Assembly (NCBI GenBank): GCA_016195985.1
Contig: JACPYP010000011.1
Span: 248,001 to 312,000, forward strand
DNA length: 64,000 bases
Origin: Acidobacteriota bacterium
GTDB taxonomy: Bacteria > Acidobacteriota > Holophagae > Holophagales > Holophagaceae
Direction: 5' to 3'
This document shows, piece by piece, positions 36,956 to 40,727 of the stretch; position 1 is the stretch's first letter, and every line of letters starts with the position of its first letter. The position numbers and the translations under genes are program-made. The notes beneath the pieces are model-generated. The model was not told where the DNA came from. It saw only the letters and a program-made list of their open reading frames with translations, and did not search any database.

Positions 36956-37858
36956 ATGCGGATCAACACCCTCGATGAACTCCTCCGCGCCGTCAAGGAC
37001 CGCCCCCGCAAGCGTCTGGCGGTGGCCTGGGCCAACGATGCCCACACCCTGGAAGCCGTGAATGCCGCCGTGGAAGCGGGTCTGGTCGAAGCCATCCTGG
37101 TGGGTGACGAGGCCGCCATCCTGAAGGTCCTGGCCGAGCTGGGCCTCCCCAAGGACCGCTTCCGGATCGTCCACACAGCCACGGACACGGAGGCCGCTTC
37201 CAAGGCCGTAGGCATGGTGCGCTCCGGCGAGGCCGACCTGCTCATGAAGGGCCTCCTCAGCACCGACAAATACATGCGGGCCATCCTGAACAAGGAGCAG
37301 GGCCTGATGGACCCCGGCGCCATCCTCAGCCACGTGACCGTCATGGAGCACCCCGGCCATTCCAAGCTCATGATCGCCAGCGACGTGGCGGTGATTCCCG
37401 AGCCGGAGTTTAAGGAGAAGCTGGCCATCCTGAACTACCTGGTGAGAACCGCCAAGGCCCTGGGCATCGAGACGCCCAAGGTGGCGGTGCTGGCGGCCTC
37501 CGAGCAGGTGCTGCCCAAGATGAGTTCGAGCTCCGACGCGGCCATGCTGTCGAAGATGGCCGATCGCGGCCAGATCAAGGGCGCCCTGGTGGACGGCCCC
37601 CTGGCCCTGGACGGCGCCCTGGACCCTGAATCGGCGAAGATCAAGGGCCTGGGCGGCCCCGTGGCCGGCGACGCCGACTGCCTGCTCTTCCCCAACATCG
37701 AGGCGGGCAACGTGTTCTACAAGGCCGGCACCAAGCTGGGCGGCGCTGAAATCGCAGCCGTGGTGGCCGGGGCCCGCGTTCCCTGCGTCCTCAGCAGCCG
37801 CGGCGACAGCGCCAAGACCAAGCTCAGCTCCATTGCGTTGGCGGCGCTGCTGGCCTGA
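36956..37858 (+). CDS. ptb: Phosphate butyryltransferase / acyltransferase
   Basis: A 300-residue protein of the phosphate acetyl/butyryltransferase family. It shows KRLAVAWANDAHTLEAV, GEADLLMKGLLSTDKYMRAILN, HVTVMEHPGHSKLMIASDVAV, GALVDGPLALDGALDPESA and NIEAGNVFYKAGTKLGGA in the usual order. It would exchange CoA and phosphate on a short acyl group. A separate PTA-like domain is fused to butyrate kinase only about 0.7 kb away on the other strand, so acyl-phosphate chemistry is duplicated here. Confidence 0.9.
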   Translation: MRINTLDELLRAVKDRPRKRLAVAWANDAHTLEAVNAAVEAGLVEAILVGDEAAILKVLAELGLPKDRFRIVHTATDTEAASKAVGMVRSGEADLLMKGLLSTDKYMRAILNKEQGLMDPGAILSHVTVMEHPGHSKLMIASDVAVIPEPEFKEKLAILNYLVRTAKALGIETPKVAVLAASEQVLPKMSSSSDAAMLSKMADRGQIKGALVDGPLALDGALDPESAKIKGLGGPVAGDADCLLFPNIEAGNVFYKAGTKLGGAEIAAVVAGARVPCVLSSRGDSAKTKLSSIALAALLA

Positions 37859-37882
37859 GAAACCGACAAACACAAAGAACGT

Positions 37883-37916
37883 AAAAGGCGCAGAAGGAGT
37901 TCCCTCTGCGCCTTTT
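37883..37916. terminator. Bidirectional terminator
   Basis: AAAAGGCGCAGA (37883-37894) and TCTGCGCCTTTT (37905-37916) form a 12-base perfect stem with A and T runs on the outside. It can serve both ptb (+) and the peptide gene (-) that end on either side. Confidence 0.88.
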
Positions 37917-37931
37917 GGTGTTCGTTCCGGG

Positions 37932-38099
37932 TTAGTTCTGCCAGCAGATGTGGCGGTTGACGGTGTAGCACTCATTGAAGTGGCAAGTCTGGCGGCTCGC
38001 CGTCTTGCCGCCGCCAGCGACTTCGTCGACAGCCTCGACCGTGAGAGCCTTCAGCGTCTCCTTATTCAGGTTCAACTTCTTTTCGGTTCGCTTCGCCAT
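37932..38099 (-). CDS. Lanthipeptide-type RiPP precursor peptide
   Basis: A 55-residue peptide. The leader has KKLNLNKETLKALT and then VDEVAGGG, matching the KLxLxKETLxxL...VAGG leader of class I lanthipeptide and GG-type natural product precursors best known from Bacteroidetes. The core after the glycines has three cysteines (CHFNECYTVNRHIC) plus two Thr and one Ser that could be dehydrated. AAGGAGG lies 5 bases before the ATG at 38099, deciding against the longer frame to 38138. No LanB, LanC, protease or transporter is in the window, so maturation would rely on enzymes elsewhere. Confidence 0.8.
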   Translation of the reverse strand: MAKRTEKKLNLNKETLKALTVEAVDEVAGGGKTASRQTCHFNECYTVNRHICWQN

Positions 38100-38516
38100 G
38101 GAAGCCTCCTTGGATGGGTGAATCCCGCATGGATCCATTGTTTTTGGGGTGCGTGAAGGATCCTAACCCCCGACCCGACGACGGATCTGCAGCGAAATCA
38201 AAAGGTGCATGCCAGTGCGGCCAACCAACACTCCGAACCCGTTGACTGACATCTTCAGCCTGATGAGCAAAACCTTCGCGGAGGACGAGACAACCCGTTT
38301 CAGGTTCCCCTGATGGAACGGCTCCACTGGGCAACCGAGGATGAGAAACCAGCAGCATCCGGCCCGACTCGGACCGCAAGCGCGAGCATCACAGCAGAGC
38401 TGTCCGAGACGGGAACGACTCCGGTGGGCACCTGGAGCCGATTGGCGTGGATTTGGAAGGGCATGAATGCCCATCCCGGCGCTTCACCCCTGGATGCCTC
38501 CTGCGGTGGATCTCTT
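38100..38516. other. Intergenic region without a convincing gene
   Basis: The 417 bases between the peptide gene and the fused kinase gene. Frames on both strands have mixed codon composition and no recognisable product. A small hairpin GGGCAT-GA-ATGCCC at 38459-38472 lies 45 bases past the kinase stop. The promoter of the peptide gene should lie here, but I cannot place clear boxes. Confidence 0.5.
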
Positions 38517-40727
38517 TCAATTCGCGGGCAGATAATCCTTCGCCACTTCGCGCCCGGCCAGCACGCGGAGGGCGCCCTTGGCCAGGGCGGCCATCTCGTT
38601 CTCGCCGGGATAGACCTTCACGGGGCAACCCAGGGACACGGTGTAGCGCGTGAGATCGGCCACCAGTTTCTTGGAGCGGGCCATGCCGCCCGTGAGGAGG
38701 ATGGCGTCGATGGGCTCGCCCTCGAAGGCCGGCGCCAGGGCCGTGATGTTCTTGGCGATCTGGTAGACCATGGCCGAGTAGACAAGCCCCGCCTCGGCAT
38801 CGCCTTCGTCCACGCGCCGTTCGACTTCGCGCATGTCGGCGGTGCCCAGAAGGTCGATGAGGCCGCCGCGGCCCTTGTTCAGGAGCTTCATCTCCGTCTT
38901 GGTGTACTTGCCGGAGAAACAGAGGTCGATGAGCTGTCCCGGCGGCAGGCTGCCCGAACGCTGGGGAGAGAAGGGCCCTTCTCCGTCGAGGCCGTTGTTC
39001 ACATCCAGGTAGTGGCCCTTGCGGTGGGCGCCGACCGTGATGCCGCCGCCCATGTGGGCCACGATGACGTTGATGCGCTCGTAGAAGGTCTCCCGTTCTT
39101 CCGCGAAGCGGCGGGCCGTCGCGATCTGATTCAGGGCGTGGCTCACCACGCGGCGGGGCAGTTCCTTCACGCCGGTGATCTTCACCTTCTCTTCGACCTC
39201 GTCCACCACCACCGGATCGACGATGAAGGCGGGCTTGCCGGTTCCCGCCACCAGCTCGGCGGCGATGAGGGCGCCCAGGTTGGAGGCGTGTTCGCCGCGC
39301 TTGCCTTCGCGCAGATCTTTCAGCATGGCCTCGCCCACGTTCCAGGTGCCGTGGGGGATGGGACGCAACAGGCCGCCGCGCCCGGCCACCGCATCCAGAT
39401 CCGCCAGGGAAAGGCCTTGATCCGCCAGGAAGCGCAGAACGGCGTCTTTGCGGAAGCTGAACTGATCGGTGATGGGCTTGCCCTCGAAACCCTTCAAGGC
39501 TTCGGAGGCATGCTGGATCTCTTCGGTGCACCGCTCCTCGTCGCCCTCGTACACGGAGGTCTTGGTGGAAGTGGAGCCTGGGTTGAGCACCAGCACGCGG
39601 TGGCGCCGGAAGAAAGTGTCCTTGGGCGTGCGGTCCCATTCGCCGTAGGCATGCAGACGCATGACGGAGGCCTTCACAGCCAGGCGGATGTCCTCGGGCG
39701 TGCAGTCCATGGCCAGATCGACGCCCTGGAACCGGAGGCCGAACATCACCGGGAATTTGCGAGCATCCGGGAAGCGGGTTCCGTAGAGGTGGTAGAGCAG
39801 GTTGCCCATGTCGAGGTTGGGGCAGACGATGACACTGGGCCCGCCCTCCCAGGGCAGCCCGTCCGCATCGTAGAGCCCAGCGGAGCGGCGCGAGAGCGCC
39901 ACGCTGACCTTCACTTCGCTGCGGATGTGAATGGTCCCGTACCTGGGAGAGTGGGCCACGCGCTCGGCGAGGATGGCGGGCACCAGGTCCGCGGCCTGGC
40001 GCACCAGCTCCGGAGAAGGCCCTTCGTCGCTGCCGCGGTTGGAGTAGGACACCATGGCGCAGCGGATCTCCGGCAGCACCTCCTCGGGGATGAGGTCGCG
40101 GGCCACGGCGCAGGTGCCCACAGCCACCTCCGCGAGGATGCGCGGCGACATGCTGGCATTCACTCCCACATCGCCGAACACCACGATGTTGTGGGGATAG
40201 ACGTCCTCCGGGTGTTCGTCCGGAAGCACGAAGATGCCAGCTTCGCAGGTGACATCGCGGTGGGCCAGGAGGTCCACCATGGGCCTGAAGAAAGCCTTGG
40301 GCTCGTGGATGGCACCGCCCACCACCGTGTCCGCGTGGCCCAGCTTCACGGCCCAGATGCCGAAGTGGCCGGGCTCGGAGACCTGGATGCGCGCCTCGTC
40401 CAGGGTGAGCGCCCTGCCCTGGCTGCGGTTCCACGCCACGCAGGCCGCGGCGAAGGCCTCGACGAGGTCGGGGCGGGAGGCCGGATCGAGAAAGGCGCTT
40501 TCGGAAAAGGTGTAGGCGACGCGGTCCTCGCCGAGGTGGCTTAGATCCCGGGCGGCCATGGCCCGCACGGCGGATTCCGGGGCGAGGAAAACGGGCCGGA
40601 TGAACCGGCCGAGGAAGCAGGCGGCTTCGATGGTGCGGGCATCCAGCGCCTCCGGGAACACCACCGTGGGGCGGTTCCGGGGCACGGCCAAGAGACGGCT
40701 GTCGAGGGAAGCTTCGATGTCAAACAT
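38517..40727 (-). CDS. buk: Fused phosphate acyltransferase-butyrate kinase
   Basis: A 736-residue fusion. Residues 1-350 resemble the phosphate acetyl/butyryltransferase fold (RPTVVFPEALDARTIEAACFL, GHADTVVGGAIHEPKAFFRP, VFGDVGVNASMSPRILAEVA, CPNLDMGNLLYHLYGT). Residues 375-736 are an acetokinase-family butyrate kinase: VLVLNPGSTSTKTSVYEGDE, VAHMGGGITVGAHRKG, the sugar-kinase-type ILLTGGMARSK and VYPGENEMAALAKGALRVL. Together the two halves would convert an acyl-CoA to acyl phosphate and then to the acid plus ATP in one polypeptide. In most organisms these are separate genes. A stand-alone ptb lies nearby. The start at 40727 is the first ATG and gives a normal PTA-like N-terminus. Confidence 0.88.
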   Translation of the reverse strand: MFDIEASLDSRLLAVPRNRPTVVFPEALDARTIEAACFLGRFIRPVFLAPESAVRAMAARDLSHLGEDRVAYTFSESAFLDPASRPDLVEAFAAACVAWNRSQGRALTLDEARIQVSEPGHFGIWAVKLGHADTVVGGAIHEPKAFFRPMVDLLAHRDVTCEAGIFVLPDEHPEDVYPHNIVVFGDVGVNASMSPRILAEVAVGTCAVARDLIPEEVLPEIRCAMVSYSNRGSDEGPSPELVRQAADLVPAILAERVAHSPRYGTIHIRSEVKVSVALSRRSAGLYDADGLPWEGGPSVIVCPNLDMGNLLYHLYGTRFPDARKFPVMFGLRFQGVDLAMDCTPEDIRLAVKASVMRLHAYGEWDRTPKDTFFRRHRVLVLNPGSTSTKTSVYEGDEERCTEEIQHASEALKGFEGKPITDQFSFRKDAVLRFLADQGLSLADLDAVAGRGGLLRPIPHGTWNVGEAMLKDLREGKRGEHASNLGALIAAELVAGTGKPAFIVDPVVVDEVEEKVKITGVKELPRRVVSHALNQIATARRFAEERETFYERINVIVAHMGGGITVGAHRKGHYLDVNNGLDGEGPFSPQRSGSLPPGQLIDLCFSGKYTKTEMKLLNKGRGGLIDLLGTADMREVERRVDEGDAEAGLVYSAMVYQIAKNITALAPAFEGEPIDAILLTGGMARSKKLVADLTRYTVSLGCPVKVYPGENEMAALAKGALRVLAGREVAKDYLPAN

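Follow-up and report, generated by a model that had tools for sequence, protein, structure and literature searches.

The window analyzed here is a stretch of 64,000 nucleotides (positions 248001-312000 of contig C18) from a genome of 4.26 Mb in 33 contigs (hereinafter G000). Between two genes related to butyrate metabolism, it contains a small gene on the minus strand (38099..37932) that encodes a peptide of 55 amino acids, MAKRTEKKLNLNKETLKALTVEAVDEVAGGGKTASRQTCHFNECYTVNRHICWQN, followed by a stop codon. The coordinates and the length of the peptide are those of the original prediction, which left the strand unstated; the plus-strand translation of 37932-38099 is unrelated to the precursor peptide. 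The ribosome-binding site is strong, as predicted, with the Shine-Dalgarno sequence AAGGAGG and the ATG codon five bases further on. In the alignments, residues 1-31 (38007..38099, minus strand) form a leader that displays the LxLxKx5L motif (L9, L11, K13 and L19; motif as in PMC7268733) and ends in GGG, the double-glycine site being AGGG at positions 28-31. The remaining part, the core KTASRQTCHFNECYTVNRHICWQN (37935..38006, minus strand), delineated by translation and by alignment with the copy from a sister species, fits the predicted pattern of three cysteines accompanied by dehydratable residues: the cysteines are located in positions 39, 44 and 52, and four serines and threonines (Thr33, Ser35, Thr38 and Thr46) lie beyond the GGG.

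The proposed affiliation of the leader with class I lanthipeptides is borne out by the NCBIfam model NF038153 (class I lanthipeptide leader), which matches the precursor with 25.1 bits against a curated cut-off of 22, as well as by the LxLxKx5L...GG signature itself. A Pfam search of the precursor peptide returned no match, and the model TIGR04149, which describes leaders of radical-SAM-modified RiPPs, did not match the window peptide either, while giving the paralog on contig C30 17.4 bits against a cut-off of 25. When the window was Markov-shuffled 60 times, none of the resulting small ORFs, 34,851 in total, displayed the leader-plus-GG pattern, which is found once in the real window, so its occurrence is not due to chance. 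Together with the low dN/dS value reported below, these results confirm that the peptide is encoded by a real gene with a class I lanthipeptide leader, one that is easily overlooked. All testable defining features of the class I LxLxK/GG precursors were detected, with the exception of the gene neighborhood. The presence of the modification enzymes beside the precursor is usual for class I but is not obligatory.

The gene is flanked by a phosphate butyryltransferase-like gene (36956..37858, plus strand) and by a gene for a 736-amino-acid protein (38517..40727, minus strand) in which a phosphotransacylase-like domain is fused to butyrate kinase, so that the fusion and the separate phosphate butyryltransferase-like gene are close neighbors; both genes are part of the context and lie outside the system discussed here. 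In five other species, nothing but 4-105 bp separates the two butyrate genes (here 37858 to 38517), and in many more the gap is occupied by other genes, so that the precursor gene is an insertion at this site, with no evident link to butyrate metabolism. Across the genus, this gap is a variable site (L118-L140), with a nitroreductase-like or another gene in some of the species. Downstream of the precursor, there is a candidate intrinsic terminator with a 15-pair stem (37883..37916, minus strand), although such structures are expected nearly as often by chance (0.9 in shuffled sequences, against one in the real sequence). An Rfam search of the surroundings of the precursor gave no match, and a hairpin in the 5' UTR that could be formed by a pair of GGATCC sequences was rejected, its folding being no better than that of shuffled sequences.

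A copy of the precursor gene that is 69-70% identical occupies the same place in the genome of a sister species (G020), the one clear copy among the relatives searched, where the flanking DNA is 85-92% identical and its order is conserved. All three cysteines and much of the NEC.T.NRHICW segment of the core are conserved in this copy. Comparison of the two genes by the Nei-Gojobori method yielded pS of 0.70, pN of 0.17 and dN/dS of 0.09, an approximate value given that dS is close to saturation and that there are only 34 synonymous sites. With dN/dS low and similar in the leader (0.075) and in the core (0.098), both parts are subject to strong purifying selection. As a proportion, the synonymous divergence of this pair (window 37932-38099 vs L056:8437-8610) is roughly double the values for the genes on either side (0.33 and 0.36), which suggests that the precursor copies predate the split of the flanks or that one of the copies has been replaced.

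As anticipated in the original prediction, no LanB or LanC is encoded near the precursor: none was detected in the window, and the only matches in the genome are at C18:138785-142151 and C18:584776-586728. A search of the entire genome for LanB, LanC and a C39 peptidase-transporter recovered all three in one operon, LanC-LanB-HlyD-C39/ABC-ABC, that is located on the same contig, 145 kb from the precursor. The LanB gene of this operon (C18:138785-140737) encodes both the Lant_dehydr_N and the Lant_dehydr_C domains, the LanC gene (C18:141006-142151) encodes a LANC_like domain, and the remaining genes encode HlyD, a fusion of Peptidase_C39 with an ABC domain and a second ABC protein; according to the Pfam assignments, a histidine kinase and a LytTR response regulator (PF04397) adjoin the operon. 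The LanC protein contains the AHG, WCYG and CHG motifs, and the C39 domain contains the cysteine motif ECGAAC. This is the sole LanC of the genome and also the sole LanC-like match, a stand-alone protein with a 464-amino-acid open frame, whereas the bifunctional LanM is not represented. Contig C18 carries both the precursor and the operon, and therefore contamination does not explain their pairing.

The peptide had been described as an orphan, but the genome encodes at least three scattered precursors, this one among them, that apparently share one operon. The search for paralogs with the same leader identified two, on other contigs, namely C30:103017 (63 amino acids) and C9:49059 (52 amino acids), making three such precursors in G000; G020 also has three. 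The alignments show a common leader joined to variable cores. The matches of these precursors to the leader profile all have E-values below 1e-14, compared with 0.0014 for the next best match in any of 60 genomes, a separation that is partly built in, as the matched precursors contributed to the profile. Within 20 kb around each of the G000 LanB genes, neither the motif nor the leader HMM detected a same-leader peptide, and the idea of a concealed precursor next to one of these enzyme genes was rejected. One of the G020 precursors is flanked by the LytTR gene and the transporter gene; in G000, the response regulator and transporter genes are only 21 bp apart, so that the cis precursor is missing there. 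Among the 47 genomes of the genus, both LanC and relatives of the leader family (P0002; E <0.001) are confined to G000 and G020, a co-occurrence that, given the close relationship of these two genomes, counts for little more than one evolutionary event.

Because the genome encodes the enzymes and same-leader paralogs, and because a sister species has the precursor gene at the equivalent locus, maturation in trans, the interpretation originally offered, is the best reading; RiPP modification enzymes are present in the genome, and the leader is conserved in the sister species. Specifically, we consider it likely, with a probability of roughly 0.8, that the peptide is a class I lanthipeptide precursor undergoing maturation in trans and that it is a member of a small group of dispersed precursors that depend on a single remote operon. 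In this scheme, the LxLxKx5L leader would be bound by the remote LanB (C18:138.8-140.7 kb), which would use Glu-tRNA to dehydrate serines and threonines of the core. Cys39, Cys44 and Cys52 would be joined into thioether rings by LanC (C18:141.0-142.2 kb), and the C39-peptidase ABC transporter would remove the leader by cleavage behind the double glycine and, together with its HlyD partner, export the mature peptide. Each of these steps, modification, ring formation, cleavage and export, is predicted from the known functions of the respective families. A single operon would serve at least three scattered genes that have a common leader and different cores, and the product may have an antibacterial or a signaling role, or both.

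The precursors also share elements upstream of the coding region. The ribosome-binding and start block GGAGGCTTCCATGG (38096..38109, minus strand) is identical in five precursors, and a longer pattern, GGAGGCTTCCATGGNNAARC, has exact matches only at these five genes in the two genomes (8.5 Mb), with 0 matches for the reversed-pattern control. Alignment of the five upstream regions further delineates a conserved element, TAGGATCC (38158..38165, minus strand), that is perhaps the promoter -10 region; a simple sigma-70 promoter scan gave no match. About 133-141 bp 5' of the ATG, three of the five precursors (those on C30 and C9, and the one near LanB in G020) have the direct repeat GYCACTnnn-N12-GYCACTnnn, a 9-12-9 pattern that occurs nowhere else in 80 genomes and that resembles the published LytTR sites, ACCACTTAC-12 bp-ACCACTTAC (PMC6193735). 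At a position similar to that of the sister repeats, the window gene has a candidate LytTR-type repeat, GTCAGTCAA-N12-GTTGGTTGG (38221..38250, minus strand), which is degenerate and weak, with a chance of ~0.07 of an equal score in the upstream 200 bp. The LytTR response regulator that adjoins the operon probably controls the expression of these precursors in concert, although the contrast between the clear repeats of the sister precursors and the degenerate one of the window gene counts against the main reading.

The clustering of the C39 exporter, the histidine kinase and the LytTR regulator, along with the LytTR-like repeat found only before three precursors, would also accommodate a scheme in which the processed peptide is mainly an autoinducer that is exported by the C39 transporter, is sensed by the kinase and feeds back, via LytTR, on the scattered precursor genes. 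However, the repeat of the window precursor is degenerate, and no strong copy could be detected 5' of lanC or of the kinase gene. A predominantly autoinducing function is possible, even if we are inclined to doubt it, and could be compatible with maturation in trans by the remote operon.

A different enzyme could, in principle, act on the peptide, and this too counts against the main reading. The second LanB of the genome (C18:584776-586728) has no LanC but encodes a complete dehydratase, with both the N and the C domains, and is accompanied by a histidine kinase/LytTR pair of its own; should it dehydrate the peptide, the product would be linear and dehydrated, or otherwise altered, and would lack rings. 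In line with such an activity, G043, a genome with a LanB but no LanC, encodes a peptide with a weakly similar leader, MAKKLHLTKETLRIL...GGGGG, at a contig end (L060:3163-3340). In a phylogenetic tree of 30 LanBs, however, the second LanB groups with LanBs that are widespread in the genus, and the LanC-linked LanB groups only with the LanB of G020 (support 100/100), the leader family being found only alongside this LanC-linked LanB; in addition, the conserved cysteines of the core suggest ring formation. We therefore consider modification by the second LanB to be unlikely. The clade of this second LanB (L040:7787-10939; G000, C18:584-587 kb) is spread over a genus in which only G000 and G020 possess LanC.

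The direct repeat itself invites yet another explanation, in which it is the remnant of a transposon end without a regulatory role and the precursors spread through the genome in the form of mobile cassettes. Some IS21-type elements have GTGTCACT-like repeated ends, and the gap between the ptb and buk genes is a variable insertion site among the relatives. Against this, the repeat is confined to the precursors in the 80 genomes, and inspection by eye of the ORFs listed near the three precursors with the repeat revealed no evident transposase. We disfavor the IS21-end interpretation because the repeat is found only before precursors, and take an origin of this kind to be quite unlikely. That the gene is a decaying leftover which has lost expression or processing, as the absence of processing genes nearby and the degenerate promoter repeat might imply, is highly improbable in view of the open frame, the intact start block, the dN/dS of 0.09, low in leader and core alike, and the retention of all three cysteines.

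The scattered set that is apparently matured in trans combines features of several known systems. It resembles the class I LxLxKx5L...GG systems (NF038153; PMC7268733) in the leader motif, the double glycine and the core with cysteines and serines or threonines, and in that LanB, LanC and the C39 transporter are all encoded in the G000 genome. Such leaders have been described for class I precursors of Bacteroidetes, frequently in association with a C39 protease (PMC7268733), whereas here the host, which judging from the composition of its relatives may be a Geothrix-like member of the Acidobacteriota, appears to lie outside Bacteroidetes, the precursor is 145 kb away from the enzymes and the operon has no precursor of the family nearby. 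The prochlorosins and synechococsins, which are modified by the class II enzymes ProcM and SyncM, likewise comprise genome-scattered precursors with a common leader, variable cores and a central enzyme (PMC10783134), the same arrangement as in the present system. Nevertheless, the window peptide does not belong to the prochlorosins: the system is of class I, with LanB and a separate LanC, an LxLxK leader and no LanM, and it has a handful of precursors rather than dozens. With the LytTR bacteriocin regulons (HdrR/BrsR and PlnC; PMC6193735, PMC2714321), the system shares 9-bp direct repeats 12 bp apart before peptide genes, a LytTR regulator beside an exporter, and GG-leader peptides; the difference is that here three sister precursors have a clear repeat but that of the window gene is degenerate, and binding is putative.

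A limited, non-exhaustive survey of the open-access literature yielded no report of scattered class I precursors and no paper on a Geothrix lanthipeptide. Protein queries of the genome_contigs collection with the precursor and with LanB likewise returned no relatives. Large-scale mining of lanthipeptides has sought precursors at most seven genes from a LanC (PMC7268733), a radius that would miss the window peptide and would present the operon as apparently lacking a substrate. Conceivably, a class I LanB/LanC/C39 operon devoid of a precursor of its own is maintained for scattered, diversifying precursors, which a quorum-type LytTR regulator would induce jointly by way of the repeats that their promoters share. 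Such a system would parallel that of the prochlorosins, but in class I and under one control circuit; we put this forward tentatively, at slightly less than even odds. If class I systems do serve scattered precursors, "precursor-less" LanB/LanC loci and "enzyme-less" peptides may pair up in many cases, and the start block and promoter repeat that the precursors have in common would, if this is true, offer a route to such precursor sets that relies on DNA patterns only.

Two minor observations concern the other members of the leader family. The third peptide of this family in G020 (L057:6858-7061) is A+T-rich, lacks the shared start block and the repeat, and is close to an apparent transposase fragment; perhaps, it is a recent arrival. 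The ORF located 5' of the C30 precursor (L007:4721-5899) resembles, by eye, a free-standing catalytic part of threonyl-tRNA synthetase.
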